The position numbers and the translations under genes are program-made. A stretch of DNA of 64,000 nucleotides from Myroides fluvii (GTDB lineage Bacteria > Bacteroidota > Bacteroidia > Flavobacteriales > Flavobacteriaceae), in NCBI RefSeq assembly GCF_009792295.1, contig NZ_CP039934.1:1-64000 (forward strand). The letters run 5' to 3'. Position 1 is the stretch's first letter, and each line of letters opens with the position of its first letter. The notes beneath the pieces were generated by a model that saw only the letters and a list, made by a program, of their open reading frames with translations, did not search any database and was not told where the DNA came from. Below, piece after piece: positions 23,524-43,881 of the stretch.

Positions 23524-25095
23524 TTATTCTACAATGTTTGTAATTAACTTCTTATAATTATGAGGATATAGATCTGTGATATTCTTGTGGTTTATGGATT
23601 GAATATTTTCAAGAACATACTTTAACCATTGGTATGGATTAACGTCATGTTTTTTACAGTTAGCGAAAAATGTATAGGCCATAGCTGCTCTTTGCGCAGC
23701 ATCATGAGAACCAGCAAAGAGATAGTTTTTACGTCCAAGGGCTACAGGTCTAATTACATTTTCTACAAGGTTGTTGTCTATCTGTAAGTTTCCATTGTAT
23801 AAATACGCACTAAGGTTATCCCATCTTGTTTGTGAGTAAGCAAAAGCTTTACCTATTTGACTTTTAGGTAATGTAAGTTTCATCTGAGCGAACATATATT
23901 TACCCAGTTCATTGATAATAGGTAAACTCTCTTTTAGACGAAGTTCTTTGATTTGGTCAGGAGCTAAGTTTTGTTCTTTTGCTTTTTTCTCTACAGCATA
24001 TAATTTCTGTATTTCTACGAGTACATGCTGAGCCCTTATTTTATCATTGTCTAATGCTCTCTCAAATTCACGACGAGCGTGTGCCCAACAGCCAAGATGT
24101 GTAACATCTGACTTATTTCCATAGGCTTTGTACCCGCTATAACCATCAGTTTGCAGGTATCCTTTGAAGTTTTCTAATATGGGTAATGCAGCACTACTAG
24201 CACGAGTAGGACTGTAATTAAACATCACGAGTTTGGATATAGGTGCGTGATACACCCAATAATACCCAAGATGAGATTTATCTTTCTTTTTCTCATCTAA
24301 GACTTTGATGGTGGTTTCATCAACTTGAAGATAACCTTCGTTTTTGATGTCCATCACCAGCTTTTGGTATAGTGGCTTCAAAGCATCCATACTTTGAGCT
24401 GCCCAACCATCTATTGTAGAGGAAGCAATATCGATATTCTCTCTTGAAAAGCGTTGCTTTTGTCTATATAGAGGAAGATGGTCTACATATTTGTCAACCA
24501 ATATAGTTGATAGAAGTCCTTCTGAAGCTATTCCTTTATCTATAATTCGCTCTGGGAGTAATCCAATACTAATTTGGGTATCTTCTTTGTCTTTGGTCGC
24601 GTATTTATATCGGATGTAACGCTTGATTTTAAAGTAACCAGGAACATAATCTAACACATCTGTAATTTCTTTACCAATGCAGACCTTATCAGATAGATCC
24701 CCTTCTGGGTGAATTTCTATTTCTTCTACAGGTAAATGATCAGGAAGTTTCGCTCGTCCTGGATGTTTCTTCTTTTCACGAGTGTAGGTAATCTCTTGTT
24801 TGATTACTTCTTCTTGTTCCTCTAAGACTGCTTGTTCAACATCCAAAGGTAACTGAGTTTGATTAGGATCCTCAAAACGTTCTCGGCTTTGACCAAACTT
24901 CATGCGTTCAAGTAGCTTTACTCGATATTCCAGTATCGTATTTTTTTCTTCTAGTTTAGAGGTCTTTTCTTCTAACTCAGTAGCTTTCTTTTCTAACTTA
25001 GTATTTACTTTCTCTTGCTTGGAAATAGTTTTTGACTGCTGTTTTATAAGTGCCAAAAGTTCTTGTTTCGATAAGTTTTCTAAGTCTATTTCCAT
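23524..25095 (-). CDS. tnpC: IS66 transposase TnpC (copy 1)
   Basis: ATG 25095 (MEIDLENLSKQELLALIKQQ) is preferred to an upstream TTG at 25113; 523 residues. An N-terminal leucine-zipper-like coiled coil (residues 10-70) is followed by the zinc-binding-like region and the DDE catalytic domain. The catalytic Asp residues lie in YLQVDETTIKVLDEKK and YLQTDGYSGY, and the Glu in NNLVENVIRPVALGRKNY. The IS66 C-terminal domain ends in NPYQWLKYVLENI. It catalyses element transposition. The protein appears intact. Confidence 0.95.
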   Translation of the reverse strand: MEIDLENLSKQELLALIKQQSKTISKQEKVNTKLEKKATELEEKTSKLEEKNTILEYRVKLLERMKFGQSRERFEDPNQTQLPLDVEQAVLEEQEEVIKQEITYTREKKKHPGRAKLPDHLPVEEIEIHPEGDLSDKVCIGKEITDVLDYVPGYFKIKRYIRYKYATKDKEDTQISIGLLPERIIDKGIASEGLLSTILVDKYVDHLPLYRQKQRFSRENIDIASSTIDGWAAQSMDALKPLYQKLVMDIKNEGYLQVDETTIKVLDEKKKDKSHLGYYWVYHAPISKLVMFNYSPTRASSAALPILENFKGYLQTDGYSGYKAYGNKSDVTHLGCWAHARREFERALDNDKIRAQHVLVEIQKLYAVEKKAKEQNLAPDQIKELRLKESLPIINELGKYMFAQMKLTLPKSQIGKAFAYSQTRWDNLSAYLYNGNLQIDNNLVENVIRPVALGRKNYLFAGSHDAAQRAAMAYTFFANCKKHDVNPYQWLKYVLENIQSINHKNITDLYPHNYKKLITNIVE

Positions 25096-25144
25096 GAAGT
25101 AAATATACGTCAAAAGCCTTGTTTATACAAGAATTAAGACGGTT

Positions 25145-25483
25145 TTACTTCATAGAAAATCGTCTTTTTTGACTACTTTTTATCACTTGAATTCCCTCTA
25201 TCATAAGTACTAAATCACTCCAACTTATCTGTGACTTGTTATGAGATGGAAAGGCAAAAGTACCTTGTTCTAATCGCTTGTGATATAACACAAAACCTCC
25301 TGTTTCCCAGTGCAGAAGTTTCATCTGATTACCTCGACGATTGATAAAGACGTACACACTGCCATTGTGAGCTACTTGATTAAGCTCGTTTTGAACAATG
25401 CCACACAGACTATCAAAACTCTTACGCATATCACAAGCTGATTTATATAAATGGAATTGGTGACTACTACTCAGACTAAACAT
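25145..25483 (-). CDS. tnpB: IS66 accessory protein TnpB (copy 1)
   Basis: The 112-residue protein has HLYKSACDMRKSFDSLCGIV and VYVFINRRGNQMKLLHWETG, then GGFVLYHKRLEQGTFAFP, the invariant blocks of IS66 Orf2/TnpB. It is required with TnpC for transposition in the family. Its first base coincides with the last base of tnpA, so translation is coupled. Confidence 0.95.
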   Translation of the reverse strand: MFSLSSSHQFHLYKSACDMRKSFDSLCGIVQNELNQVAHNGSVYVFINRRGNQMKLLHWETGGFVLYHKRLEQGTFAFPSHNKSQISWSDLVLMIEGIQVIKSSQKRRFSMK

Positions 25484-25770
25484 TAGACAAGGTTCACTAA
25501 TGAATAGAGTTCATTTAAATCTTTCGTTTCTACACGAAGTTTCACTCCATTAGGATAGATAATATCGTATTCTTTGCTCTCAGTAATATGCTCTTTATTT
25601 ATAGTGATAAAGTTACTCGATGAATTTTGAATATTTTCATTCTTATACTTTATTACCCAATAACTAAATGTTGCTAATTTAATTCCTACGCTTTCACAGT
25701 ATCTTGATTGGGTTAATCCACTTGCTTTGTAATCCTCTACATGAGAGTACATCATTTCTTGTTTGCTCAT
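25483..25770 (-). CDS. tnpA: IS66 accessory protein TnpA (copy 1)
   Basis: The 95-residue protein (YKASGLTQSRYCESVGIKLA, TFSYWVIKY) carries the helix-turn-helix of IS66 TnpA, and the C-terminus has YPNGVKLRVETKDLNELYSL. It is the first gene of the tnpABC operon, just inside the right inverted repeat. It differs clearly from the copy 2 protein in the central linker. Confidence 0.9.
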   Translation of the reverse strand: MSKQEMMYSHVEDYKASGLTQSRYCESVGIKLATFSYWVIKYKNENIQNSSSNFITINKEHITESKEYDIIYPNGVKLRVETKDLNELYSLVNLV

Positions 25771-27488: not shown

Positions 27489-29063
27489 TTATTCTTCTAC
27501 ATTATCCAGGATAAGTTTCTTGTAATTATGAGGATATAAGTCAGCGATATTCTTGTGGTTGATGGATTGAATATTTTCAAGAACATACTTTAGCCATTGA
27601 TATGGATTAATGTCATGCTTTTTGCAGTTAGCAAAAAACGTATAGGCCATAGCTGCTCTTTGTGCTGCATCATGAGAACCGGCAAAGAGATAGTTTTTAC
27701 GACCAATTGCTACAGGTCTGATTACATTTTCAACAAGATTATTGTCTATCTGCAAGTTTCCATTGTGTAAGTAATCACTTAGATTACTCCATCTTTTTTG
27801 AGAGTACGCAAAAGCTTTACCTATTCTACTTTGAGGTAAGGTAAGATTCATCTGAGCAATCATATATTTACCAAGCTTGTTGATGATTGGTAAACTTTCA
27901 TCTAGACGAAGTTCTTTGATTTGATCAGGAGCTAAGTTTTGTTCTTGAGCTTTTCTCTCTATAGCATATAACTTCTGTATTTCTACTAGTACATGCTGCG
28001 CCCTTTTTCTATCGTTATCTAAAGCTTTTTCAAATTCACGTCGAGCATGTGCCCAACAAGCAAGATGTGTAACATCTGACTTATTTCCATAGGCTTGGTA
28101 GCCGCTAAATCCATCAGTTTGCAGATATCCTTTGAAGTTTTTTAATATAGGCAGTGCAGCACTACCGCTACGAGTAGGACTGTAATTAAACATTACAAGC
28201 TTGGATATAGGTGCGTGATACACCCAATAGTAGCCAAGATGAGTTTTGTCTTTCTTTTTCTCATCTAAGACTTTGATGGTGGTTTCATCAACTTGGAGAT
28301 AACCTTCGTTTTTGATGTCCATCACCAGCTTTTGGTATAGTGGCTTTAAAGCATCCATGCTTTGAGCCGCCCAACCATCTATTGTAGAAGAAGCTATATC
28401 GATGTTTTCTCTGGAAAAGCGTTGCTTTTGTCTATAAAGAGGAAGGTGGTCAACATATTTATCTACAAGTATTGTGGATAATAATCCCTCTGAAGGGATT
28501 CCTTTATCTATAATTCGCTCAGGAAGCTCACCAATACTAATTTGAGTGTTGTCTTTACCTTTAGTAGCGTATTTATATCGGATGTAACGCTTGATTTTAA
28601 AGTAACCAGGAACATAATCTAACACATCTGTAGTTTCTTTACCAATGCAAATCATATCAGATAAATCTCCCTCAGGATGTATTTCTATTTCTTCTACGGG
28701 TAAATGATCTGGTAGTTTAGCTCGTCCTGGATGTTTCTTTTTCTCACGAGAGTAGGTAATCTCTTGTTTGATTACTTCTTCTTGTTCCTCTAAGACTGCT
28801 TGTTCAACATCTAAAGGTAATTGAGTTTGATTGGGATCCTCAAAACGTTCTCGGCTTTGACCGAACTTCATGCGCTCAAGTAGCTTTACACGATATTCCA
28901 GTTCTGTATTTTTTTCTTCTAGTTTAGAGGTCTTTTCTTCTAAGCTAATAGTTTTCTTCTCTAACTTAGTATTTACTTTTTCTTGCTTGGAAATAGTTTT
29001 TGACTGCTGTTTTATAAGTGCCAAAAGTTCTTGTTTCGATAAGTTTTCTAAGTCTATTTCCAT
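27489..29063 (-). CDS. tnpC: IS66 transposase TnpC (copy 2)
   Basis: ATG 29063, 524 residues. It has the same DDE layout as copy 1: YLQVDETTIKVLDEKK, YLQTDGFSGY and NNLVENVIRPVAIGRKNYLF. By eye it is about 92-95 percent identical to copy 1, with most changes in the coiled coil and around residues 140-180 and 350-420. It appears functional. Confidence 0.95.
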   Translation of the reverse strand: MEIDLENLSKQELLALIKQQSKTISKQEKVNTKLEKKTISLEEKTSKLEEKNTELEYRVKLLERMKFGQSRERFEDPNQTQLPLDVEQAVLEEQEEVIKQEITYSREKKKHPGRAKLPDHLPVEEIEIHPEGDLSDMICIGKETTDVLDYVPGYFKIKRYIRYKYATKGKDNTQISIGELPERIIDKGIPSEGLLSTILVDKYVDHLPLYRQKQRFSRENIDIASSTIDGWAAQSMDALKPLYQKLVMDIKNEGYLQVDETTIKVLDEKKKDKTHLGYYWVYHAPISKLVMFNYSPTRSGSAALPILKNFKGYLQTDGFSGYQAYGNKSDVTHLACWAHARREFEKALDNDRKRAQHVLVEIQKLYAIERKAQEQNLAPDQIKELRLDESLPIINKLGKYMIAQMNLTLPQSRIGKAFAYSQKRWSNLSDYLHNGNLQIDNNLVENVIRPVAIGRKNYLFAGSHDAAQRAAMAYTFFANCKKHDINPYQWLKYVLENIQSINHKNIADLYPHNYKKLILDNVEE

Positions 29064-29112
29064 GAAGTAAATATACGTCAAAAGCCTTACTTATACAAGA
29101 ATTAAGGCTGTT

Positions 29113-29451
29113 TTATCTCATGGAAAACCGCCTTTTTTGACTACTTTTTATCACTTGTATTCCTTCAATCATAAGTACCAAATCACTCCAACTGATTTGA
29201 GTCCGATTATGAATAGGAAAAGCAAAAGTACCTTGTTCTAATCGCTTGTGATATAACACAAAACCACCTGTTTCCCAGTGTAAGAGTTTCATCTGATTAC
29301 ATCGACGATTAATAAACACGTAGACACTTCCATTATGAGCGACTTGATTAAGCTCGTTTTGAACAAGACCACATAGACTATCGAAACTCTTGCGCATATC
29401 ACAAGCTGATTTATACAAGTAGAATTGATGACTACTACTCAGACTAAACAT
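29113..29451 (-). CDS. tnpB: IS66 accessory protein TnpB (copy 2)
   Basis: The 112-residue protein is nearly identical to copy 1. One notable change is RRCNQMKLLHW, where copy 1 and the family have RRGNQMKLLHW. The start shares one base with the tnpA stop. Confidence 0.95.
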   Translation of the reverse strand: MFSLSSSHQFYLYKSACDMRKSFDSLCGLVQNELNQVAHNGSVYVFINRRCNQMKLLHWETGGFVLYHKRLEQGTFAFPIHNRTQISWSDLVLMIEGIQVIKSSQKRRFSMR

Positions 29452-29738
29452 TACACAAGGTTTACTAATGAATAGAGTTCACTTAAGTCTTTTGTTTCTA
29501 CATGAAGTTTCACTCCATTAGGGTATACAATTTCGTATTCTTTACCTTCTGTTTTAGGTGTTTTACCTATTGCTATAAAGTTACTTGAGCATTCTCGCTC
29601 TGTTTCACTCTTAAACTTTACTACCCAATAACTAAATGTCGCTAACTTAATTCCAACACTTTCACAATACTTGGATTGTGTTAATCCACTTATTTGCCAA
29701 TCCTCTACATGAGAGTACATAATTTCTTGTTTGCTCAT
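29451..29738 (-). CDS. tnpA: IS66 accessory protein TnpA (copy 2)
   Basis: The 95-residue protein (WQISGLTQSKYCESVGIKLA, TFSYWVVKF) shares the helix-turn-helix and the YPNGVKLHVETKDLSELYSL end with copy 1. Residues 40-62 are much more diverged than TnpB or TnpC. Confidence 0.9.
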   Translation of the reverse strand: MSKQEIMYSHVEDWQISGLTQSKYCESVGIKLATFSYWVVKFKSETERECSSNFIAIGKTPKTEGKEYEIVYPNGVKLHVETKDLSELYSLVNLV

Positions 29739-30066: not shown

Positions 30067-30543
30067 CTAAAATACTTCCGATTTCCAAACCACTTGTCCT
30101 GGTTTTAATGTTTGTAAGGCCGTGACACGAGCAAATCCTGCTACATATGATGCAGGATACGTACATACAAAATCTTCTATAATCGCATCGTGATCGATTG
30201 TTACATTGGCATTGATGATACAATGTTTCCCTACTTTCGCATTGGCTTGTACTACAGCATTAGCTAATACCACTGTGCCTTCTCCAATTTCAGCAGAAGG
30301 GGATACATAAGCCGTTGGGTGAATAACTGTATCAAAGGCATGTTTTACTTCCGTAGAGATTCTTTGGCGTACTTCATTATTTCCAATACCAATAATTACT
30401 TTGGCTTCTGGTTCATAATCTGCACGATACGGATTACTTGTGTCATCAAAATAAGCTACCTCAATTGCTTGATTAATCTGATAGATTGTATCTTCTACAA
30501 CCTTACCATGGCCTCCTTTTCCGTAAATCATTATCTTTTTCAT
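30067..30543 (-). CDS. NeuD/PglD-type sugar acetyltransferase, short form
   Basis: The 158-residue protein has the N-terminal PglD-like Rossmann part (MKKIMIYGKGGHGKVVEDTI). Left-handed beta-helix hexapeptide repeats follow (SAEIGEGTVVLANAVVQANA, KVGKHCIINANVTIDHDAII), with the catalytic-type His in DHDAIIED. The end (YVAGFARVTALQTLKPGQVV) is shorter than the usual 200-220 residues, so one or two helix turns are missing. It is the last gene of the minus-strand operon, 33 nt after the initiating transferase. The usual aminotransferase partner is absent, so its acceptor is uncertain. Confidence 0.75.
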   Translation of the reverse strand: MKKIMIYGKGGHGKVVEDTIYQINQAIEVAYFDDTSNPYRADYEPEAKVIIGIGNNEVRQRISTEVKHAFDTVIHPTAYVSPSAEIGEGTVVLANAVVQANAKVGKHCIINANVTIDHDAIIEDFVCTYPASYVAGFARVTALQTLKPGQVVWKSEVF

Positions 30544-31545: not shown

Positions 31546-32295
31546 TTATTTTATAAAATAACGTATAAAACCATTAATCATCCAATAACCTGTATAATAC
31601 ATGGCTTTAATAGTTCCAAAACCTTGTGTATCTTTTAAAAAATCAATATGCTTTAGAATAAGTTTATGCTTACTACTTGTCGCTGAGTTTTTAACCTGTC
31701 TATAATAGGCTAACTCTTTGTCTATACCGTAAGATTTTACACCACTTTTTAAAATTGATAACCACAAAGCATAATCTTGTTTTCTTGCATGCTCAGACAT
31801 ATAAAACTTGCCTATTTTTTCTGCATCGTATACCGCTGTCAAACAACTGATCTCCGTACGTTTTAGCAAGTGCTGATAATCAACTTCTTTACTAACATGA
31901 AGTGTAGATTTTATCTTATTCCCCAATTCATCTAAATATCCATAAGATGTATGAGAGAAATAATAATCATTTTGCATCATAAACGGAATCTGTATTGCAA
32001 GTTTATCTACATGCCACTTATCATCCGCATCAAGAAAGGCAATATACCTACCTATTGCTTGTTTTATCGCAAAGTTTCTTGTTTTTCCAGACTTTAAATT
32101 CTCGCTATTTGAAAATATTTTGATACGATTATCTTTATCGGCCAATTCTTGCATAATACTCCAAGAATCATCAGTTGAACAATCGTTTACCAAAATCCAT
32201 TCCCAATCTTGGTATGTTTGATTGATAACGGATTCTGCAGTTTCTCTTAGAAATCGTTCTGCATTATAGACTGGAGTTATTATTGATACTTTCAT
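31546..32295 (-). CDS. family 2 glycosyltransferase
   Basis: The 249-residue GT-A enzyme starts MKVSIITPVYNAERFLRETA. The metal-binding DxD is in YIAFLDADDKW and the acidic catalytic region in RKQDYALWLSIL. There is no long membrane domain, as expected for a repeat-unit transferase acting on the lipid-linked intermediate. The gene overlaps the acyltransferase upstream by 4 nt and lies 3 nt before the initiating transferase. Confidence 0.9.
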   Translation of the reverse strand: MKVSIITPVYNAERFLRETAESVINQTYQDWEWILVNDCSTDDSWSIMQELADKDNRIKIFSNSENLKSGKTRNFAIKQAIGRYIAFLDADDKWHVDKLAIQIPFMMQNDYYFSHTSYGYLDELGNKIKSTLHVSKEVDYQHLLKRTEISCLTAVYDAEKIGKFYMSEHARKQDYALWLSILKSGVKSYGIDKELAYYRQVKNSATSSKHKLILKHIDFLKDTQGFGTIKAMYYTGYWMINGFIRYFIK

Positions 32296-32801
32296 GAAAT
32301 ATGATTCTTTATAAATTTTGCAGGTACTCCTGCATAAATAGAATTAGGCACATCAAACTTTTTAGTCAACACAGCCCCTCCTGCCAAAATAGATCCTTTT
32401 GGCAAAATAGATCCAGCAACAATTGTACAATTACCCGATACCCACGCACCTTGCTCGATTACAACCGAATCAATTTTTGATTTAGCAAATCTAAATGAAT
32501 GCCCATCATATTGATGATTACCTCCAGAAATAACACAATTTGGTCCAATAATTACATCATTCTGAATCTCAAGGTTTAATGCAATAATTGTATTACGGGG
32601 AGCAATATAAACATTATCACCAATCCTAATTCCAGTTAAAGTACTAAAATAGACATCTGCCGCTACTTGAAAATTTCTCCCACATTCTTTCATCATTAAG
32701 GAATAGAGAAATCCTCTAAACCTCATAATGACAGGTATATTTGGAAAGAAAAACAATACACTTCTTACAAACCAAGAATATATAATTGAAACTTTATGCA
32801 T
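32292..32801 (-). CDS. WcaF-like hexapeptide O-acetyltransferase
   Basis: The 169-residue protein has left-handed beta-helix repeats (GIRIGDNVYIAPRNTIIALN, IVAGSILPKGSILAGGAVLT) with the catalytic-type His in SGGNHQYDG and the terminal AGVPAKFIK of the family. It probably adds acetyl groups to the repeat unit. It overlaps neighbours by 4 nt and 8 nt. Confidence 0.85.
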   Translation of the reverse strand: MHKVSIIYSWFVRSVLFFFPNIPVIMRFRGFLYSLMMKECGRNFQVAADVYFSTLTGIRIGDNVYIAPRNTIIALNLEIQNDVIIGPNCVISGGNHQYDGHSFRFAKSKIDSVVIEQGAWVSGNCTIVAGSILPKGSILAGGAVLTKKFDVPNSIYAGVPAKFIKNHIS

Positions 32802-33933
32802 TCTTAAATATTTTTTTTAAAAAACTTTCTATTGTATATGTCTTTACTTTATTAAAAGAATTCTCTCGTAATTCATTATAAAACTTATTATTACACATAT
32901 CATTCATTTTATTTGCAAAATCTTTTGGACTATTAAATTCTGCAAATAAGATTTCTTCTTTATCCACAAAAGTTGAAGGTAAACTACCAACAGGCGTACT
33001 AACAACAGCTAACCCATTAGCCATTGCTTCAAGTATAACTCTCGGAGAACCTTCTGATAAAGAACCAAAAACAAAAACATCATGTCCTCTTAATAACTCA
33101 TTTAATTCTTTTCGTTGATCTACATGACCTGTAAAAACAACATTTTTTATGTCTTCCACTTGGACTAATTTCTTAAGTTCTTTCTCACTTTCACCAGTAC
33201 CAACTATAGTTAAAGTTGCTCCATTTGTCTTCTTTTGAATCAAATTAAAAGCCTTTAATACAGTGTCTACACCTTTTGCTTTGCGTAAATAACCAACATA
33301 AATAAACTTTGGAGAACTTAAATTTAACGTTTTATTTATAAAATAAAAATCCTCGTTATTTAACGTTGTAGAAATCATTGGAGTTGCAACTATCCCCTTT
33401 TTACTCAATTTTTTAGCAATATGATGACCATTAGTATAAACAGTTGCTTTTTTTGAAGCTAATTTGAACATAAAATCTTCAGGTTTAAAAAACATTCTGT
33501 ACAACGACTTCTTTAAAGAACTTAAATTGGGATTATTAACAATCGTATCTACAGGATCTCCAACATAATGAATAATTCTATTTTCTTTTTCAAAAAAAAA
33601 CATTTGTAACCAGCCAAAAGGTCCTGGATATCTAGTATAAACTCTATTACATGTTTTAGATAATTTTTTATAGGCATTATAGTAAAAAGGAAAATATTTA
33701 ATTGTATCAATGTATCCACTACTATAGGGTAATTCATTAATATAGAGATTAGTAAAATCGTTTAAGCTTATAAACCCTTTATTTAAATCCTTTACTACTT
33801 TTACAGGAGACATTAGCCAAACTTCATCATAATATTTGACGATTTCATTAAGATAAACCCAATGTGTATAAGGTATAAAATACTCATCCTCAACCTTAAA
33901 CAGTGTCCAAGCATGAACTATAATACTATTCAT
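32794..33933 (-). CDS. family 4 glycosyltransferase (GT-B)
   Basis: The 379-residue protein has a C-terminal nucleotide-sugar domain with FIYVGYLRKAKGVDTVLKAF and the EX7E motif in EGSPRVILEAMANGLAVVST. It is in the core of the operon, overlapping by 8 nt on both sides. The acceptor and sugar are unknown. Confidence 0.9.
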   Translation of the reverse strand: MNSIIVHAWTLFKVEDEYFIPYTHWVYLNEIVKYYDEVWLMSPVKVVKDLNKGFISLNDFTNLYINELPYSSGYIDTIKYFPFYYNAYKKLSKTCNRVYTRYPGPFGWLQMFFFEKENRIIHYVGDPVDTIVNNPNLSSLKKSLYRMFFKPEDFMFKLASKKATVYTNGHHIAKKLSKKGIVATPMISTTLNNEDFYFINKTLNLSSPKFIYVGYLRKAKGVDTVLKAFNLIQKKTNGATLTIVGTGESEKELKKLVQVEDIKNVVFTGHVDQRKELNELLRGHDVFVFGSLSEGSPRVILEAMANGLAVVSTPVGSLPSTFVDKEEILFAEFNSPKDFANKMNDMCNNKFYNELRENSFNKVKTYTIESFLKKIFKNA

Positions 33934-35136
33934 TTAATTTTTTTTTATCTTTATTTATAACCAACAATAAACTTATCAAACCAAATAACAAATGATGTCT
34001 TAAAATTGGCATTGAAGAGAATGAAAATAATAAAAATTGAATAAAAACGACTCCAATCCACAAATAACTATTATTATTTTTAACTAATTTCCAACTAATA
34101 AATAAGCTTTTAATCAAAACTACAACAAAAAAACAACACCTACAACACCTACATTTATCAATGATTCTAAAAAAATATTATGTGGATACCATCCTTTTCC
34201 CATACCAAAAGTTAAAACAAAATGACTCCCAAAAAATGGTGCTTCTAAAAATTGTATTACTGCATCATTAAACAAAATTTCTCTAGGTCCTAAATCTATT
34301 TGTTGAGCTAAAAAAACTTTACCTAATCTATCCCCAAATTCTGGAGCAAAATATGCTAAAACTTCAATTGAAGCACTTACATTGAAATATATAATCAATG
34401 TACAAAACAATATAACTATCTTAAATAAAAAGCTTAGTATAGAGTTACCTTTTTTGACAATTGAGTAAAATAAAAATGCTAACAATACAGCTAAAATTCC
34501 TGATCTTGAACCAGCAATTATAACAGTTATTAAACCAACGACCATTCCTGTTATTAGCAATAGATTAGGTACTTTTTTATCAGTATTATTCATTTTTATA
34601 ATAATTGATAATAAAAATAAAGAAGCACCATACTGTCCATAAAGTAAAGTCGGAATATAAGAATTTGCATCAGCTCTACTTTGTGCATCTTCCTTCATTA
34701 AATTAAAAAATAAAGAAATAAAACAAAATATAAACAATACCTTATAAAACCATAATAATAATGGTTCTAAGTCCTTTATCTTATAGGTAGACAATGACAT
34801 GATAAGTAATCCTAATTGGAAATTATAAGTGACATACTTATTAATGTCTTCATACAAATAGTCACTATGTTTTAAAGTCTTATCGAAATAAAGGGAATAG
34901 AGCATTCTTAAAAAATACAATAACCAAAATAGAAATAATAATCTACTATATTTGTCTACTAAGAATGTATTTGTTCTTACTCCATAATTTATAACAATTA
35001 GACTAAGCACAATACCAAAACCTTGAAAAAAAACGGTGACAAAAAATGGACTAAGGCCTATGATAGATGGTATATAAGAATAAATCATCAAGGAACAAAA
35101 AATCCAAAATAAATTATACCTTTTTACTTTCTCCAT
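33926..35136 (-). pseudogene. wzy: O-antigen polymerase Wzy, frameshifted at an A7/T7 run
   Basis: Starting at 35136 the protein is very hydrophobic, with about ten membrane helices. It has a periplasmic loop with FGMGKGWYPHNIFLESLINV, the WYPHN-like motif of the O-antigen ligase/polymerase family. The frame ends at 34120 after VVGVVFLL. The next frame continues as expected (LIKSLFISWKLVKNNNSYLW, RHHLLFGLISLLLV) to 33926. One extra T in the T7 run (minus strand; A7 at 34127-34133) would restore a single 403-residue protein. Loss would block chain polymerisation and leave single repeat units; phase variation or a sequencing error are alternatives. Confidence 0.8.
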
Positions 35137-36263
35137 ACTAAAAATTTACTTATTTGCTTTTTAAAAGGTATATTTGATTTTAAATATCGATAGTAGTTTT
35201 TCAAAAAGTCCACTAAGTAAAACTTATTTTTTTTATCACTTAAAATAACTTTTTCATAAAGTGATAACACTTTTTTATTTCCAATAAACGCATCACAATA
35301 CTCTTTATAATAATCGCCTAAATTATTTTCTTGGTTTAAGCCTACTAATTCGAGATGCTCATATCTTTCGGAGAAATTATAATATAAACAATTCATAAAA
35401 TTTTCATTTGATACTTTAATCACTTGCTTTAGTACTGAACTGTATAAAAAAACCTCTTTATCTAAGCCTATTGCTTCCATAGCACCTCTTCCTGTTCCTA
35501 AAACTATATCTGCAACAAATAAACATTTACTTGCCTCGCCAGTATAATCATCATCATTCAAATGATAATATTCTATATTTCCAAAATCATTAATAATTTT
35601 TACTAAGCTATCATCATATTCTTTACCAATTATAACAACAACTGATTTAAAATTTTCCGAATTTCGACTATTAGCTACTTCAAAAGCAGCTCTAATCGAA
35701 TCTTTATAATAACTATTAATATTTCCTATTCTAAAAACATACTCTTTTGATTTACTATAAGAAATTTCACTTTTTAATTTTTGCAATAAGATATCATCAC
35801 ATTTAGGTAAAATTATTCTATTAGGAATAAGATAATAATCAATTTTCTCTTTATTATTATCTTGCAAATAATCAAAGTTCTCTAATGAAAACAATATTGT
35901 AGAATTACATTTAGGGGTATATGCAAAATTTGGACCTCCGCATTTTGTATACAATAGCTTTACACCTGTAAAAAAACTAACTATTCTACCTATAAAGAAA
36001 GAAATACTATCATAACAATGTATGATAGTAATTTCATTATTTTTTACATATTTTGATAAATAAATGATTTCATATAAGGCTAAGAATGTTGATTTGATGA
36101 ATTTAGACTTCTCAATACTCTCTATAACCGGGGAAGATACCTTTCCAAACTGAAATATAAAATACTCAAAATCAATAGGCCAATTAACACATAATCCTTT
36201 CAAACTTCTAAAATGTCCTCCAAGCCCGTTGCTACCGTTATAAATCAAATAAACTACTTTCAT
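35124..36263 (-). CDS. putative glycosyltransferase (GT-B fold)
   Basis: The 379-residue protein has a glycine-rich N-terminus (MKVVYLIYNGSNGLGGHFRS), as in GT4-like enzymes. A C-terminal domain has YVFRIGNINSYYKDSIRAAF and GTGRGAMEAIGLDKEVFLYS, corresponding to the donor-binding EX7E region, though the first Glu is replaced (GTGRGAMEA). It is diverged from classical GT4. It overlaps the polymerase by 13 nt and the MurB gene by 4 nt. Confidence 0.7.
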   Translation of the reverse strand: MKVVYLIYNGSNGLGGHFRSLKGLCVNWPIDFEYFIFQFGKVSSPVIESIEKSKFIKSTFLALYEIIYLSKYVKNNEITIIHCYDSISFFIGRIVSFFTGVKLLYTKCGGPNFAYTPKCNSTILFSLENFDYLQDNNKEKIDYYLIPNRIILPKCDDILLQKLKSEISYSKSKEYVFRIGNINSYYKDSIRAAFEVANSRNSENFKSVVVIIGKEYDDSLVKIINDFGNIEYYHLNDDDYTGEASKCLFVADIVLGTGRGAMEAIGLDKEVFLYSSVLKQVIKVSNENFMNCLYYNFSERYEHLELVGLNQENNLGDYYKEYCDAFIGNKKVLSLYEKVILSDKKNKFYLVDFLKNYYRYLKSNIPFKKQISKFLVWRK

Positions 36264-37114
36264 ATAATTCTTTGTTCAACTTCCAAAATCACCTCAAACT
36301 TTTCGTATACCAATTTCTGTATGTAACTAATCAAGTTTAAAATATCTTTTCCTTCAGCATCACCAATATTAACGATGAATCCACTATGTTTTTTAGAAAC
36401 CTGAGCCCCTCCAATAGTATATCCCTTTAACTCCAACTCATCTAACATTGGTCCAACAAACCTCCCTTCTGGTCTTTTAAATACACTACCTGCATTTGGA
36501 AAATCTTTTGGTTGTTTAGAATGCCTTAATTCTTTTATATCCGACATTTTTTTACTAATTTCTTCTTCAATTCCCTTAGATAAACACAATACCGCAGATA
36601 GCACTATAAGGTTTTTATTTTGTTGAAAGAAACTATTTCTATAACTAAACTGACTTTGCTTATTATCAAATTCAATAAACTCTCCTTTATCGACATTATA
36701 ACAAGTAACTAATTCAACTAAATTACAGATTTCTTCTCCACTCGCGCCAGCGTTCATAACAACTGCTCCTCCGATAGAGCTTGGTATATCATAAAAAACC
36801 TCTACTCCAGATAATGATTTTTTTAGAGCATACTCAGCAAGATCTTTTGTAAATACGCCTGCTTGAACATGTAATCTATCACCACTTAATTCTGTTATTT
36901 TCGAAAACTCTTTTGCCATTATAATAAATGCACTATCATAATATTTTTTTGATAAAATAATATTATGACCACTCCCTATAATAACAACATCTTTCTCTAC
37001 ATTGAAAATATTCTTTATATCTTCTTCAGAATCAATAAAATAAGCAACTCTACAAAAAGCTTCTACTTTATAAGAATTGTATTCCTTTAAATTACAATTT
37101 AAAATTTTTAACAT
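36260..37114 (-). CDS. murB: MurB-like UDP-N-acetylenolpyruvoylglucosamine reductase paralog in the polysaccharide locus
   Basis: The 284-residue protein has the FAD-binding PCMH fold: VVIIGSGHNIILSKKY, GVEVFYDIPSSIGGAVVMNA and GASGEEI. The active-site parts are present: SYRNSFF with Tyr158-Arg159, PNAGSVFKRP with the proton donor Ser210, and LEVEQRI with Glu280. The YRxSxF loop is of the type II class. MurB reduces the enolpyruvyl group made by MurA to lactyl, giving UDP-MurNAc. In this locus it lies between a glycosyltransferase and the flippase, two genes from a MurA paralog. Confidence 0.85.
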   Translation of the reverse strand: MLKILNCNLKEYNSYKVEAFCRVAYFIDSEEDIKNIFNVEKDVVIIGSGHNIILSKKYYDSAFIIMAKEFSKITELSGDRLHVQAGVFTKDLAEYALKKSLSGVEVFYDIPSSIGGAVVMNAGASGEEICNLVELVTCYNVDKGEFIEFDNKQSQFSYRNSFFQQNKNLIVLSAVLCLSKGIEEEISKKMSDIKELRHSKQPKDFPNAGSVFKRPEGRFVGPMLDELELKGYTIGGAQVSKKHSGFIVNIGDAEGKDILNLISYIQKLVYEKFEVILEVEQRII

Positions 37115-38399
37115 ACTCGAATAATATTTTAAAATACATAAAATCTTGTTTTCTTGGCCTGATGATTTCTTTTATAGGTATTTTTACTGTTTTACTATAA
37201 AAAAAAAGAAACATAATACCAGCTGTAGAATAACTTATGGTCGAAGCAATTGCGGATCCTTTCGCACCATACTCGCCAATTAAAATATAATTAAAAATCA
37301 CATTAATAATTAACGCAGGCAACATGGCATAAATAGCAATCCAAGGCTTTCCTTTTCCTGCTAAATCCATATTCATAACTTTGAAAACAGTCAAAATCAA
37401 AACTCCTGGTAAAAGACTTTTCAATACATCCCCACTCCTATAAAACTCTTCTCCAAAAAGAATAGAAGTAATCTCATTTGATAAAAAATAAAGTACAAGT
37501 GAAAATATTCCAATTGACAAAAATGATAATCTTAATAACATTGCCACTTTCATAGAAAAACTTCGACCGTCCTTTGCAACAGCACTTCTTGCAAAAACAA
37601 TTGTACTAAACAACATAGGTATTTGCCACAGATATTCAGCTATTACTACACCTTTTGAATATAGACCAATCTCTTCTTGAGTACTCAATTTATCAAGTAA
37701 AATTACATCTACCTTATAATTCAAATTAATAAGCAATAGAGAAAGAGCATAAATCAATCCTAAAGATAACATTTGACTAAGAATTTTTTTATCTATACGT
37801 AAACTAAAGCTATCTAAAAAACCATTGTAAAATATCAAAATCAAAGACATTGTTAGAGGTCCAATAATCAAACTTATTAATACCCCTGTAACACCTAATT
37901 CCATAAAATAAACTAATACGAAATTAGACAGTAAAGTTATAAAACTCGGCAACCATGAAACCCTATTATATTCCTTTATTCTATTTTTTCCTAAATAGAT
38001 ACCAGAATTATATACATTAAATAAAGTAAATGGAATAGGTAAAATCCCTAATAGTATCCAAAGCTCTTTGCTATCAATACTCGTAAATTCTTTAATTAAA
38101 AAATAACAAATAACTAAAGATAAAATACTTGTAAAACACCAAATTTGGATAACAGCCTCTTTGATTTTTTTTTCTGAATAAATTTCTTGTCCTAAAAGAT
38201 ATGTAACAGATTGTGATACACCCAAAGAACCAAAACTCATAAACAAAGATGGATAAACAGCTATTGTAGCAATAATTCCATTATTAATCGGCCCCAAATA
38301 TCTTGCAATAACAATGGTAGAAATTAATCCACAAAGAATTATCAATAATTTTGAGACACCAATACTTAAAAAGTCTTTTATAAAGCTTCTTGTTTTCAA
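37092..38399 (-). CDS. wzx: Wzx-type polysaccharide flippase
   Basis: The 435-residue protein has about 12-14 membrane segments. The N-terminus (FLSIGVSKLLIILCGLISTI, ARYLGPINNGIIATI) is typical of the polysaccharide transporter (MOP/MVF) family. It moves the lipid-linked repeat unit across the inner membrane for the polymerase. It overlaps the MurB gene by 23 nt. Confidence 0.9.
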   Translation of the reverse strand: MKTRSFIKDFLSIGVSKLLIILCGLISTIVIARYLGPINNGIIATIAVYPSLFMSFGSLGVSQSVTYLLGQEIYSEKKIKEAVIQIWCFTSILSLVICYFLIKEFTSIDSKELWILLGILPIPFTLFNVYNSGIYLGKNRIKEYNRVSWLPSFITLLSNFVLVYFMELGVTGVLISLIIGPLTMSLILIFYNGFLDSFSLRIDKKILSQMLSLGLIYALSLLLINLNYKVDVILLDKLSTQEEIGLYSKGVVIAEYLWQIPMLFSTIVFARSAVAKDGRSFSMKVAMLLRLSFLSIGIFSLVLYFLSNEITSILFGEEFYRSGDVLKSLLPGVLILTVFKVMNMDLAGKGKPWIAIYAMLPALIINVIFNYILIGEYGAKGSAIASTISYSTAGIMFLFFYSKTVKIPIKEIIRPRKQDFMYFKILFEYVKNFKL

Positions 38400-38401
38400 A
38401 A

Positions 38402-39697
38402 CTAATTAATTAATTCAATTACAACTCCTAATCCTTTTAACTTTTCTTCTAGCTTATTATATCCTCTTAAAGCCATATCTATTCCACTAATCTCAGATTC
38501 ACCACTAGCTAATAATGCGCCAATTAATAAAGCCATACTTCCTCTCAAATCTGTAGAGACCACATTATTAGCAATTGGCTTAGCATCAACACTTCCTGAA
38601 ATTACAATTTCCCCATGTTTTGCAACAATAGAATTATTATACATTTTAGACAACTCTTCACAATATTTTATCCTTTCAGGGTACCTATAATCATAAACTC
38701 TACTCCTACCAGAAGCGTGTAATGCTAATAAAACAAAGAAAGGTTGCATATCAGAGATAATACCAGGATATGTCCCCGTAGCTAATTCAAATGGTTGAAT
38801 TGACTCATTATCTATAACACTGCCATCTATATATACATTATTATCATTTCTATAAATACTAATCCCCATTTCTCTCAAATGTATTAAAGGAATTTCTAAT
38901 GTACTAAAAGGTATATCTTTTACAAGAATACTTCCTCCACTAAGAATTCCGTACACAATCCAAGTTATTGCCTCAATTCTATCAGGCATCACCTTATAAC
39001 ACCCTCCTCTTAAATATTGTTTCCCTTCAATTTCAATATAACTTGATCCTATTACTTTTATATTTACTCCCATCATCTTTAAAAATGAGATTAAATCATT
39101 AACTTCAGGAGAAATATAGGCATTCTTAATTATAGTTTTTCCCTCAGCGATACTACCACAAATTAATGCAGTTTCAGTCCCTCCTATTGTACTTATTGGA
39201 AAATCAATTTCAGTTCCCTTCAATTTTCCATCTATAGTAACATGAATATAATTTTCTTTTTCGGTTACTATAGCACCAAAACTCTCCCATGCACTTATAT
39301 GTAAATCGTACCCTCTATGACCAATCTTACACCCCCCAGGATAAGGAATCATAGCCTCTCCAGATTTTTTTAATAATCCAGGAACTAACAAATAAGTAGT
39401 TCTAAACAAATAATTATAACTATCTAACTCTCTATTTTCAAAATTAGTTGAATTAATTATTAACTCTTCTTCCTTCGATAATTTATCAATCTTACCTCCT
39501 AATTTTTGAATAAAATCAATTTTATAATTTGCATCAACTAATTCCGTTGGATAATTTTGTAACACAATCTCCTCATCACTTATTAATGCAGCAGCTAACA
39601 ATTTCGTTGCTGAATTCTTAGCTCCACTAACCTGAACAACACCACTAGGTATTTGTCCACCCTTTATTTTTGCTTTTAAATTATAATTAGCATCCAT
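38402..39697 (-). CDS. murA: MurA-like UDP-GlcNAc 1-carboxyvinyltransferase paralog in the polysaccharide locus
   Basis: The 431-residue protein has the EPSP-synthase fold. Lys27-Asn28 in VSGAKNSATK, the catalytic Cys123 in YPGGCKIGHRGYDLHI and the general base Asp316 in ISDMQPFF are all present, as is STDLRGSMALL. The enzyme transfers enolpyruvate from phosphoenolpyruvate to UDP-GlcNAc. Length is full for the family. Its operon position (2 nt before the flippase gene, 11 nt after a nucleotide-sugar dehydrogenase) points to a role in the surface polysaccharide, not the cell wall. A Cys at the active site predicts fosfomycin sensitivity. Confidence 0.85.
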   Translation of the reverse strand: MDANYNLKAKIKGGQIPSGVVQVSGAKNSATKLLAAALISDEEIVLQNYPTELVDANYKIDFIQKLGGKIDKLSKEEELIINSTNFENRELDSYNYLFRTTYLLVPGLLKKSGEAMIPYPGGCKIGHRGYDLHISAWESFGAIVTEKENYIHVTIDGKLKGTEIDFPISTIGGTETALICGSIAEGKTIIKNAYISPEVNDLISFLKMMGVNIKVIGSSYIEIEGKQYLRGGCYKVMPDRIEAITWIVYGILSGGSILVKDIPFSTLEIPLIHLREMGISIYRNDNNVYIDGSVIDNESIQPFELATGTYPGIISDMQPFFVLLALHASGRSRVYDYRYPERIKYCEELSKMYNNSIVAKHGEIVISGSVDAKPIANNVVSTDLRGSMALLIGALLASGESEISGIDMALRGYNKLEEKLKGLGVVIELIN

Positions 39698-39708
39698 ATT
39701 TAAACTTT

Positions 39709-41004
39709 TTACAATCTACTATCAACCCCTGCTTTCAACAATCCTTTTACGTCATAGACAATAGCCGTGTCTTTCTTCAGCTTGTCGATGTCTAAAGCTA
39801 AGAGTTCTTTGTGTGCTACTCCTAATACCACTGCGTCATATTTGGCTTGTGGCAATGTTGTATGACTCACTACGCCATATTCGTGTTTTACCTCTGCTGG
39901 GTTTGCCCACGGATCATACGTTGTTACTTGTACGCCATAATCTTCTAAAGCCGCGATAACGTCTACAATTTTGGTGTTGCGCACGTCTGGGCAGTTTTCT
40001 TTGAAGGTAACTCCTAACATCAACACTTCAGCTTTGCTTACATCAATGCCCTTTTTAATCATGGTTTTGATTACTTGAGACGCTACATACTCGCCCATCG
40101 AATCGTTTAAACGACGACCTGCCAAGATAATTTCGGGGTGATACCCCTTTTCCATGGCTTTTTGCGCTAAATAGTACGGATCTACCCCAATACAATGCCC
40201 ACCTACTAATCCGGGTTTGAAAGGCAAGAAGTTCCATTTCGTTCCTGCTGCTTCTAATACGGCATGCGTATCGATATCCAATAGGTTGAAAATTTTTGCT
40301 AACTCATTGACAAAGGCAATGTTGATATCGCGTTGTGAGTTTTCAATTACTTTAGCTGCTTCTGCTACTTTGATGGTTGGTGCTAAGTGGGTACCTGCGG
40401 TAATCACAGCTTTGTAGATATCATTAACCACCACGCCTATTTCGGGTGTACTACCTGCCGTTACTTTTAATATTTTTTCTACGGTGTGCTCTTTGTCTCC
40501 AGGGTTGATGCGCTCTGGTGAATATCCACCAAAAAAGTCAACGTTGAATTTTAATCCAGAAACACGTTCTAAAACAGGTACACATTCCTCTTCCGTTACG
40601 CCTGGGTATACGGTTGATTCATAGATGACGATATCTCCTTTTTTCAATACTTTCCCCACGGTTTCAGAAGCTTTATACAAAGGCGTCAAATCAGGGCGAT
40701 TGTGCTTGTCAACCGGTGTTGGTACCGTTACTACAAATACATTACAATCGGTAATATCTCCTAAATCATACGAACAGTACAACCCTTTTGCTTCATTAGC
40801 TAAAACGGGATTTGTCGTTACAGTCACCGCTTGCAAAATTTCGTTTGCCACTTCTAGTGTACTGTCTTTTCCTTCTCTTAATTCAGCGATACGCCCTTGG
40901 TTGATATCAAAACCTACGGTTGGAAATTTAGTTGCGAATAAACGAGCCAATGGCAATCCTACGTATCCTAATCCGATAACTGCAATTTTATGTTGTGTAC
41001 TCAT
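39709..41004 (-). CDS. tviB: UDP-HexNAc 6-dehydrogenase, TviB/WbpO type
   Basis: The 431-residue protein has an N-terminal Rossmann motif (IAVIGLGYVGLPLARLFATK), VFVVTVPTPVDKHNRPDLTP, the substrate loop GGYSPERINPGDKEHTV and the catalytic Cys in LVGGHCIGVDPYYLA. It oxidises UDP-GlcNAc or UDP-GalNAc to the uronic acid with two NAD. Together with the next gene it resembles the TviB-TviC pair of Vi antigen synthesis. A dead paralog lies at 43486-43881. Confidence 0.9.
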   Translation of the reverse strand: MSTQHKIAVIGLGYVGLPLARLFATKFPTVGFDINQGRIAELREGKDSTLEVANEILQAVTVTTNPVLANEAKGLYCSYDLGDITDCNVFVVTVPTPVDKHNRPDLTPLYKASETVGKVLKKGDIVIYESTVYPGVTEEECVPVLERVSGLKFNVDFFGGYSPERINPGDKEHTVEKILKVTAGSTPEIGVVVNDIYKAVITAGTHLAPTIKVAEAAKVIENSQRDINIAFVNELAKIFNLLDIDTHAVLEAAGTKWNFLPFKPGLVGGHCIGVDPYYLAQKAMEKGYHPEIILAGRRLNDSMGEYVASQVIKTMIKKGIDVSKAEVLMLGVTFKENCPDVRNTKIVDVIAALEDYGVQVTTYDPWANPAEVKHEYGVVSHTTLPQAKYDAVVLGVAHKELLALDIDKLKKDTAIVYDVKGLLKAGVDSRL

Positions 41005-41072: not shown

Positions 41073-42047
41073 CTATAGCATCTCTTTGTGCTCCCAATAC
41101 CATTTTACGGCTTCTTTTAGCCCTTCGCGGATTACATGGGTAGGTTCATAGCCTAGTAGGTTTTTTGCTTTATCTACAGCCGCTAGCGAATGAGCAACAT
41201 CCCCTTGGCGGTTTGGTCCGTGTTGTACTTCAATAGTGGCAATTTCACTGTCGTATTCCGTTAAAAATTCTTTTAAATACCCCACCAATTGATTCAAATT
41301 GGTACGATCGCCAACTGCTGTATTGTAAACCGTATTGACAGCCTCTTTATTGGTAGTCAACATGGCGCGTTCATTCATCTGAATCACGTTGTCGATATAG
41401 GTAAAATCGCGAGAGTTCTCTCCCGTTCCGTTAATCGTTGGGCTTTCGTGTTGAATAAATTGTTTGGTAAACAACGGAATAACCGCAGCATAAGCACCTC
41501 TGGTATTTTGACGACGTCCGAATACGTTGAAATAACGCAATCCGATAATTTCAATACCATAGGTTTTGGCAAATACATCCGCGTATAATTCGTTTACGTA
41601 TTTGGTTACGGCATAAGGAGATAGGGGTTTACCAATTACATCCTCTACTTTTGGCAGTGCTGGCGAATCTCCATAGGTAGATGAACTCGCTGCATAGACC
41701 ATGCGCTTTACTCCACCGTCGCGTACGGCCACTAACATATTCAAAAATCCGTTGATGTTTACCTCATTGGAAGTAATCGGATCGTTAATTGAACGAGGTA
41801 CAGAACCTAAAGCTGCTTGGTGTAGTACATAGTCAACACCTGATACCGCTTGTTGGCAGGTAGCCAAATCGCGAATATCTCCTTCTAGTAGTTCGTAGTT
41901 GGGGTTGCTTATAAATTCCTCAATATTGTGTCGATAACCTGTTGCAAAATTATCTAAACAACGCACAAAGTATCCTTGATTTAAAAAGTACTCTGTCAAG
42001 TTGGAACCAATAAATCCAGCTCCACCTGTAATTAATATTTTTTTCAT
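41073..42047 (-). CDS. tviC: UDP-N-acetylglucosamine 4-epimerase, TviC/WbpP type
   Basis: ATG 42047 (MKKILITGGAGFIGSNLTEY) is the family start; a GTG/ATG 12 codons upstream is in frame but not family-like. The extended SDR enzyme has the GGAGFIGS dinucleotide motif, AASSSTYGDSPALPKVE and the YAVTKY (YxxxK) catalytic pair. The end (EPTHVIREGLKEAVKWY) matches WbpP. It interconverts UDP-GlcNAc/UDP-GalNAc or the corresponding uronic acids. 68 nt separate it from the dehydrogenase gene. Confidence 0.9.
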   Translation of the reverse strand: MKKILITGGAGFIGSNLTEYFLNQGYFVRCLDNFATGYRHNIEEFISNPNYELLEGDIRDLATCQQAVSGVDYVLHQAALGSVPRSINDPITSNEVNINGFLNMLVAVRDGGVKRMVYAASSSTYGDSPALPKVEDVIGKPLSPYAVTKYVNELYADVFAKTYGIEIIGLRYFNVFGRRQNTRGAYAAVIPLFTKQFIQHESPTINGTGENSRDFTYIDNVIQMNERAMLTTNKEAVNTVYNTAVGDRTNLNQLVGYLKEFLTEYDSEIATIEVQHGPNRQGDVAHSLAAVDKAKNLLGYEPTHVIREGLKEAVKWYWEHKEML

Positions 42048-42051
42048 AATC

Positions 42052-43452
42052 CTATTTTCCTCTACCAATGGTATAAACTTCAAATCCTATTTGTTCCAGT
42101 GCTTCCCGATCGAGGATGTTTCGTCCGTCGAATACAAAAGCGGGTTTTTGCATGTGTTCGTAAATGCGTTGCCAATCGTAGGTGATAAACTCGTCCCATT
42201 CGGTCAAAACCGCAATACCGTGTGCTCCGGCTAGGGCGTCATACGGATCTTGGTGTGCCGTTAGGTGTTGGCGGTTGGCTTCGGGCTGGCGCGTGGCTAA
42301 ATAATCCAAATCAGACAGCATTTGCATGCCCGTTACCTTGGGGTCGTACACGTGAATTTGCGCTTCTTCTTCTATCAGATCATTGGCTACGTAAATAGCG
42401 GCGGATTCGCGTGTATCGTTGGTATCTTTTTTGAAGGCCCATCCTAAGAAGGCTATCTTTTTATCGTTGACGGTATTGAATAAGGTGAGGACAATATGCT
42501 CTGCAAAACGGCGCTTTTGGTAATCGTTCATGATAATGACCTGCTCCCAATAGTCGGCTACTTCTTGTAATCCGTAAGAAGAGGCGATATACACTAAATT
42601 GAGAATGTCTTTTTGAAAACACGAACCTCCAAATCCTACCGAGGCTTTGAGAAACTTATTGCCAATGCGACTATCGGTACCGATGGCACGAGCCACCTCA
42701 CTGACGTCTGCTCCAGAAACTTCACAGAGCTCCGAAATGGCGTTGATGGAGGATACGCGTTGAGCTAAAAAGGCATTGGCTGTTAGTTTAGAGAGTTCGG
42801 ATGACCAGACGTTGGTGCGCAAGATGCGCTCCTGGGGTACCCAAGCTCCGTAAATTGCTGCTAGCGCTTCGATGGCTTGTTTTCCTGCAGCGGTTTCTTC
42901 TCCGCCAATCAGCACGCGATCGGGATGCATTAAATCTGCAATGGCCGTTCCTTCTGCTAAAAATTCGGGGTTGGATAAAATTTGAAATTCTACGCCGTTG
43001 CCTGTTTGATCTAATATGCGCTTGATGGCCTGAGCGGTACGCACGGGTAGGGTTGATTTTTCAACGACAATCTTATCGGTTGTGGCAACTCTTGCAATTT
43101 GACGGGCACAAAGTTCGATATACTTTAAGTCTGCGGCCATTCCCTTGCCTTTTCCATAGGTTTTGGTGGGGGTATTGACCGAAATGAAAATCATATCTGC
43201 CTCGTCAATGGCTTTGTCTACGTCGGTATCAAAAAATAAATTGCGCCCTCTTGCTTCTGCAATCACCGCATCTAAACCAGGCTCATAAATAGGCAACTGG
43301 TCTAAGTCTTGGTGGTTCCAGGCTTGGATACGCGCCTCGTTTACGTCCACTACCGTGATTTGAATATGGGGGTTTTTATGGGCAATAACGGCCATAGTAG
43401 GACCTCCTACATAACCTGCACCCACACAACAAATCTTCGTAATACTTTTCAT
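42052..43452 (-). CDS. ugd: UDP-glucose 6-dehydrogenase
   Basis: ATG 43452 gives [20 protein letters not shown]. It is of the long, eukaryote-like class (466 residues), with [31 protein letters not shown] and the catalytic Cys in [18 protein letters not shown]. It makes UDP-glucuronic acid for acidic polysaccharides. The upstream ATG at 43482 is in frame but adds ten residues unlike the family. It is the first intact gene of the operon in the direction of transcription. Confidence 0.9.
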
Positions 43453-43485
43453 CTTATTTCTTACAAGCTTATTATCTCTCATTAC

Positions 43486-43881
43486 CTAACATACACTCCT
43501 CTTCCATACATGCTCCATTCCAAAAGACAAACTCGAATCTTGGAGGTTAAATGTATTAAAATTAAATAAGGTACGCTTCCTCTTATTTGTGACTTTGGCA
43601 ATTTTACTCGTAAAAGCATGTGGGTTATTGCTGTGAGTCGCAAGAATATGAAATGAACAAATTGCCTGTACGTCAACGATGGGTTTTACCCTTACACCGG
43701 CAACAAGAGAATGAAAGAACTGCTTTGCTCCTTTGGCTTCGTCTTGTGCTTGTTGTAAAGACTCAATACACAAGGTACTGCTATCAAACTCCACTACAGG
43801 ATCGTGTTTAGCGAATGCTACCGCTAAAGGCAATCCAACATAGCCCTGACTTACAACTGCAATTTTATTTTCTTTTTCCAT
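43486..43881 (-). pseudogene. degenerate second TviB-like dehydrogenase, N-terminal remnant
   Basis: The N-terminus reads MEKENKIAVVSQGYVGLPLA, VAFAKHDPVVEFDSSTLCIE and SLQQAQDE, the Rossmann start of UDP-HexNAc dehydrogenases with Gly changed to Ser in the dinucleotide loop. VDVQAICSFHILATHSNNPH is a decayed form of the DIxACNVFIVTVPTP block. Similarity then fades and the frame ends at 43486. The catalytic domain is missing. It is probably an older copy of the gene at 39709. Confidence 0.65.

Follow-up and report, generated by a model that had tools for sequence, protein, structure and literature searches.

The window analysed here is a stretch of 64,000 nucleotides from Myroides fluvii (contig NZ_CP039934.1, positions 1 to 64,000), which contains a polysaccharide gene cluster on the minus strand. 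The subject of this study is a pair of genes in that cluster, murA2 and murB2, which lie on either side of a flippase gene. The first, murA2 (38402..39697), encodes a polysaccharide-type enolpyruvyl transferase of 431 residues, of the Cys type (Cys123) and with a DYRYPER signature that includes Arg338; the second, murB2 (36260..37114), encodes a flavoprotein of 284 residues resembling uridine diphosphate (UDP)-N-acetylenolpyruvoylglucosamine reductase, with 1hsk as its best solved match. Between them is wzx (37092..38399), a polysaccharide flippase gene (PF01943/PF13440). Complete murA and murB paralogs flanking wzx in a polysaccharide operon had been described in an earlier, sequence-only reading, and the open reading frames are present as it placed them. 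They are tightly packed: a gap of 11 bp separates murA2 from the tviB-like gene before it and one of 2 bp separates murA2 from wzx, while wzx overlaps murB2 by 23 bp and murB2 overlaps the next gene by 4 bp. This packing suggests that tviB, murA2, wzx, murB2 and the next gene form one operon; of the co-transcribed block that had been claimed, the packing is thus observed and the shared transcript is suggested by it.

Both proteins belong to the families that their names imply. MurA2 matches PF00275 (198 bits), exceeds the PRK09369 subfamily cut-off (356.6 versus 297 bits) and keeps the MurA fold, an AlphaFold2 model (mean predicted local distance difference test score 89) matching MurA structures at template-modelling scores of 0.85–0.90. 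When it is aligned to 1uae, Lys27, Asn28, Cys123 and Asp316 (positions counted from the alignment) stand at Lys22, Asn23, Cys115 and Asp305, and the counterparts of Arg91, Arg371 and Arg397 are also kept. MurB2 has the flavin adenine dinucleotide (FAD) and C-terminal domains (PF01565 and PF02873) and is well over the TIGR00179 cut-off (212.2 versus 144.5 bits), though just under that of PRK13905 (258.5 versus 259 bits); aligned to 1hsk, its Tyr158-Arg159, Ser210 and Glu280 correspond to positions 187-188, 238 and 308, again counted from the alignment. The catalytic residues named in the earlier reading are therefore intact in both proteins. Each also keeps the columns that are invariant among its relatives, in alignments of 18 sequences for MurA2 and 20 for MurB2, the window protein itself being among them in both cases.

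The pair does not represent the only murA and murB of the organism, a point that the sequence-only reading had proposed to check. The 3.77-Mb single-contig genome encodes three EPSP_synthase proteins (AroA, MurA1 and MurA2) and two MurBs. The housekeeping murA1 (G000:C1:2716592-2717848) scores 447.2 bits against TIGR01072, above the cut-off, the housekeeping murB1 at C1:576339 is of the 336-residue type, and aroA (C1:709524-710612) reaches 279.1 bits against TIGR01356, below the cut-off of 287.25. Between MurA2 and MurA1 the identity is 29%, and between MurB2 and MurB1 it is 25%. The phylogeny, likewise a proposed check, sets MurA2 in a group apart from canonical MurA: a single 100/100 branch splits 39 MurA2 rows from 41 canonical rows. 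The rows of L018, L049 and L063 and the second MurA2 of genome G026 (L086) were left out of this tree, and L087, which is identical to L038, is among its 39 rows. Recent duplication of the housekeeping genes is ruled out by the low identities together with the separate group.

To place the pair in a wider context, we scanned 84,980 species genomes with two 8-residue patterns, one of which contains the Cys; the loci recovered are therefore a minimum, and the share of Cys types among them is biased. At least 45 loci were found, comprising 39 MurA2 relatives at 43–66% identity and six ordinary MurAs at 29–32% (L043-L046, L048 and L050), which were removed before counting. The relatives are spread over Bacteroidota, Pseudomonadota, Verrucomicrobiota, Omnitrophota and Sumerlaeota. 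In 37 of the 39 loci murA2 has a murB no more than one gene away, a total that takes in the decayed pair of L049 and also L036, whose murB is upstream, and that for L024, L034 and L037 was taken from gene coordinates; in five loci (L011, L013, L014, L017 and L022) wzx separates the pair, the same arrangement as that of the window. Glycosyltransferases, flippases, ABC exporters and sugar epimerases are frequent neighbours. A flippase or exporter is present in 28 of the 39 stretches, in 24 of them within the region from 3 kb before to 3.5 kb after the murA2 start, and, of the 39 relatives, 10 are accompanied by genes labelled by eye as Wzc-like and 7 by Wza-like ones. Eight of the 31 upstream neighbours scanned match ABC_tran (31 of 33, the L036 murB and a short L049 reading frame being omitted), and the downstream or intervening proteins (39 of 40 scanned, a short L049 reading frame again omitted) match Glycos_transf_2 in 11 cases, Polysacc_synt in 9 and Glycos_transf_1 in 7. 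The copy in L049 (Halomonas sulfidaeris), with a broken murA2 and a shortened murB2, appears to be a decayed one.

Second copies are the rule in the hosts as well, with at least two murA in 36 and at least two murB in 34 of the 37 host genomes searched (L018 and L036 not included). Housekeeping murA and murB also lie a few kb apart in three genomes (G001, G016 and G019); closeness of murA to murB alone is not special, whereas the glycan-export setting is. MurA duplicates that serve peptidoglycan exist in Bacillota, and murA2 and murB2 could in principle be spare enzymes for peptidoglycan synthesis, located in this operon by chance. We consider this very improbable, since genes of glycan export accompany the pair repeatedly across several phyla, the prevalence of the pair is low and MurA2 forms a separate group in the tree.

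That prevalence is low at every level sampled: the pair was seen in the organism's own genome only, that is in 1 of 61 sampled genomes of the genus and 1 of 247 of the phylum. Plasmid-borne examples occur. Plasmid pOT1-6 of Haematobacter carries murA-murB (59% identity), with genes for glycosyltransferases, a sugar dehydrogenase and an epimerase next to it. A sister type (38–39% identity) is found on two further plasmids: on a Qingshengfaniella plasmid with murB and a GT2 gene, and on Rhizobium plasmid pCC1099_1 (L126:5896-10737) in a block murA-murB-GT2-wzx with a DLRFPGR signature, the MurA there being 39% identical to Alteromonas portus MurA2. In the window, the genes from murA2 through to the GT4 gene have a guanine-plus-cytosine (GC) content of 25–31%, in contrast to 41–46% for the adjoining tviB, tviC and ugd genes. 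The broad scatter, the rarity, the plasmid cases and this GC contrast fit horizontal acquisition, which we consider the likely route. The MurB partners fall into two groups, while murA2 forms one: 17 rows from Bacteroidota and Sumerlaeota, and 21 rows mainly from Pseudomonadota that include L018, L019 and L040 (Bacteroidota) and L028 (Verrucomicrobiota). This grouping fits an exchange of partners and suggests two origins, although one origin would be compatible with the starred branches. A phage origin was considered and rejected, the 41 phage records that match being all below 60% identity and the 10 listed lying at 32–36%, like canonical MurA.

The group is also set apart by its predicted sugar pocket. 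In 39 MurA2 rows compared with 42 canonical rows, positions 100-102, which follow the counterpart of Arg91, read TTY, where canonical enzymes have A or G, mostly S, and mostly I or V; position 315 is Ser, and positions 336-340 read DYRYP. Arg338 is present in all 39, whereas the canonical rows have Met (17), Ile (17), Val (7) or Thr (1). This residue aligns with Val327 of E. coli MurA, a position that we take from UniProt to be a UDP-N-acetylglucosamine (UDP-GlcNAc) contact, and Pro stands in place of Glu329. Asp305 and Val327 also appear among the ligand contacts given in a docking paper. The signature was also inspected in the best 120 of 3384 and the best 120 of 2907 database matches, and 238 of these best 240 carry the Cys, DYRYP and TTY, a likeness to be expected of the closest matches. 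Both sister-type plasmid MurAs that were read have DLRFPGR, also with an Arg. The MurA2 group thus appears to share an altered pocket, and the change may bear on the sugar bound.

The remainder of the cluster resembles a Wzx/Wzy-dependent locus, with an initiating transferase, Wzx and glycosyltransferases all present. Upstream of murA2 lie the tviB-like UDP-sugar C6 dehydrogenase gene (39709..41004; 545 bits against the TviB model, below the cut-off of 592), a tviC-like UDP-sugar 4-epimerase gene (41073..42083; below the TviC cut-off) and a ugd-like nucleotide-sugar dehydrogenase gene (42052..43482; above the TIGR03026 subfamily cut-off and below that of TuaD). An N-terminal fragment of a further nucleotide-sugar dehydrogenase (43486..43881; a weak match, E 3e-6) suggests cassette exchange at that edge. 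The gene after murB2 (35124..36263) encodes a probable glycosyltransferase, which has no Pfam match of its own; six related proteins taken from other murA2 loci comprise three that match Glycos_transf_1 (one above the cut-off), one that matches weaker GT4 models only and two that match nothing. There follow a wzy-like O-antigen polymerase gene (Wzy_C; 34120..35136) and genes for a GT4 glycosyltransferase (32794..33933), a WcaF-like hexapeptide acetyltransferase (32292..32801), a TuaG-like GT2 glycosyltransferase (31546..32295), a WecA/MraY-type sugar-phosphate transferase (PF00953; 30577..31542), likely the initiator of the lipid-linked unit, and a PglD-like sugar acetyltransferase (30067..30543). 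The wzy frame, which has to be intact for the polysaccharide check that the earlier reading proposed, is interrupted: it reaches a stop after 338 codons, a little beyond a T run, with coding potential going on in another frame to about 33935, and the Wzy_C profile is nevertheless matched to its end. The interruption may be a mutation, phase variation or a sequencing error. Two IS66 elements lie beside the cluster (23524-25770 and 27489-29738), in both of which the transposase and Orf2 are identified by Pfam and a third small reading frame by layout only. The broken wzy, the dehydrogenase fragment and the nearby IS66 copies would all agree with murA2 and murB2 being decaying remnants without function in this strain. 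We think this unlikely, since murA2, wzx and murB2 are full length and both enzymes keep the columns invariant among their relatives. Elsewhere in the window, a gene at 14009-14935 encodes a protein with a C-terminal colicin-DNase/WHH nuclease domain and is followed by two same-strand reading frames without Pfam matches, possibly immunity genes, and 53433-61526 encodes a protein of 2697 residues with SprB repeats, a beta-helix and a Por secretion tail.

Considering these data together, it is probable that murA2 and murB2 are a horizontally spread module that supplies an exported polysaccharide with a 3-O-lactyl (1-carboxyethyl) sugar in UDP-linked form. In this scheme MurA2 would transfer enolpyruvate from phosphoenolpyruvate to the 3-OH group of a UDP-sugar, after which MurB2, with FAD and NADPH, would reduce the enolpyruvyl product and so give the lactyl ether. 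The lactyl sugar would then be attached, by one of the cluster's glycosyltransferases, to the undecaprenyl-linked unit that the WecA-type enzyme starts, and Wzx would flip the lipid-linked unit bearing it. Several observations weigh against this proposal. MurA2 falls under the TIGR01072 murA equivalog cut-off (342.3 versus 392.7 bits); two loci (L007 and L038) have no neighbouring murB in the stretch examined; the neighbourhood search found no flippase in 11 of the 39 stretches; a sugar dehydrogenase is present in only 9 of them by clustering, or in 10 if a truncated one at the L020 edge is counted; and with its wzy interrupted the strain may make little polymer, or perhaps an unpolymerised glycan. 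The earlier reading had the pair converting UDP-GlcNAc to UDP-N-acetylmuramic acid (UDP-MurNAc). A lactyl-ether sugar is indeed a likely product, since linked murA-murB recurs in polysaccharide loci of several phyla, but UDP-GlcNAc is not assured as the acceptor, because MurA2 scores below the equivalog cut-off and has Arg at the Val327 position. The same is true of the group as a whole, the 37 full-length MurA2 rows scoring 287–386 bits and all missing the cut-off, while the MurA1s of Bacteroidota score 434–450 bits, except that of G013 at 509. For the further idea that the polymer mimics peptidoglycan we found no evidence.

The proposal contains two versions, whose odds lie within its own and which differ in the acceptor: UDP-GlcNAc, for which there is precedent, or a different UDP-sugar, for instance a UDP-hexuronic acid. 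Copies of common nucleotide-sugar genes within clusters often serve to raise supply, and the product may be UDP-MurNAc itself, with murA2 and murB2 merely providing more of it. This is a serious possibility whose odds fall somewhat short of even: the catalytic residues of both enzymes are kept, and MurNAc is reported, in the accounts discussed below, from a Vibrio vulnificus capsule, a Psychrobacter arcticus lipooligosaccharide core and the Yersinia ruckeri O-antigen, but a cell that builds peptidoglycan should have UDP-MurNAc already, and MurA2 differs uniformly from canonical enzymes at pocket positions, Arg338 included. If the acceptor were instead UDP-glucuronic acid (UDP-GlcA) or UDP-N-acetylglucosaminuronic acid (UDP-GlcNAcA), supplied by the Ugd- or TviB-like enzymes, Arg338 could hold the C6 carboxylate and the product would be a UDP-3-O-lactyl-uronate. 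The presence of this Arg in every MurA2 row and in both sister-type plasmid proteins, the adjoining tviB-like and ugd-like genes, and the 3-O-(1-carboxyethyl)-GlcA of two Alteromonas exopolysaccharides, a genus in which three genomes have the module, make such a substrate possible, yet on balance we find it doubtful. The Alteromonas link is at the level of the host genus, and the orientation of Arg338 is assumed. A UDP-sugar dehydrogenase match occurs in 36 of the 37 host genomes (a lower bound, the tviB of L011 having been missed), but 13 of 14 control genomes have one too, so this count says little. An attempt to fix the acceptor from the genes linked to murA2 in the 39 stretches failed, because a dehydrogenase is linked in so few of them.

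The sequence-only reading had also connected the polymer to fosfomycin sensitivity, and this prediction gains force from the housekeeping enzyme. The active-site loop of MurA1 reads PGGDKIG, with Asp replacing Cys115, whereas MurA2 is of the Cys type. Asp-type MurA is insensitive to fosfomycin in other bacteria. MurA2 is thus the only MurA of the genome of the fosfomycin-sensitive type, and fosfomycin is predicted to hit the glycan pathway, not peptidoglycan, in this organism. An Asp-type MurA1 was found in 17 of the 18 Bacteroidota genomes read, the present one included, the exception being the Cys-type enzyme of G013, a metagenome bin; no MurA1 was found in G033, also of the Bacteroidota, and in hosts outside that phylum all 18 MurA1s read are of the Cys type. 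A clean prediction follows: where the housekeeping MurA of a member of the Bacteroidota is Asp-type, fosfomycin should act on the surface glycan only. More speculatively, and with less confidence than in the module itself, the MurA2 group may be a mobile branch that acts not on UDP-GlcNAc but on another UDP-sugar, a UDP-hexuronic acid being the most likely, that has repeatedly recruited MurBs and is a general source of 3-O-lactyl groups in surface glycans, with fosfomycin selective for the glycan in Bacteroidota; we hold this fuller picture only tentatively.

Lactyl-ether sugars are known chemically from several exported bacterial glycans, and the genes for making them go unnamed in the available parts of those accounts. 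MurNAc occurs in the capsule of V. vulnificus ATCC 27562, for whose locus the authors propose horizontal acquisition (PMC7247339), and in the lipooligosaccharide core of P. arcticus 273-4, where earlier reports for Y. ruckeri and Proteus penneri are cited (PMC4515632); MurNAc in exported glycans thus extends beyond the few Gram-negative O-antigens to which the earlier reading had ascribed it. Further afield, 3-O-(1-carboxyethyl)-GlcA is found in the Alteromonas exopolysaccharides HYD657 and 1644 (PMC2901825) and 4-O-lactyl-mannose in Salinivibrio (PMC8466920). A literature search, to which subscription journals were mostly closed, found no dedicated murA/murB pair in glycan loci, and the database records of the murA2 and murB2 type that were inspected are annotated as UDP-N-acetylglucosamine 1-carboxyvinyltransferase and UDP-N-acetylmuramate dehydrogenase. 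Lactyl sugars could be predicted from genomes by means of such a two-gene module, in which DYRYP would be diagnostic of the MurA.

MurA2 shares the fold and catalytic counterparts of canonical MurA (TIGR01072/PRK09369) but differs in its sub-threshold TIGR01072 score, its separate group, its place among glycan-export genes, TTY, Arg for Val327 and Pro for Glu329. MurB2 is over the cut-off for MurB (TIGR00179) with the same Tyr-Arg, Ser and Glu set, but is unlike the 336-residue housekeeping MurB of its own genome and is encoded with wzx and glycosyltransferases. The enolpyruvyl transferase NikO (4fqd), 22% identical to MurA2, is a MurA-fold enzyme recruited to another acceptor in an antibiotic pathway. 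The Alteromonas exopolysaccharides have at O3 the ether proposed for the product here and share their genus with three module carriers, although their sugar is a uronic acid and their genes are unnamed in the part of the account available. The accessible text on V. vulnificus and P. arcticus names no gene for the lactyl step; the V. vulnificus capsule, whose locus has wecA and linked wza-wzc, and the P. arcticus core resemble the glycan proposed here in that a lactyl-ether sugar is part of an exported glycan.

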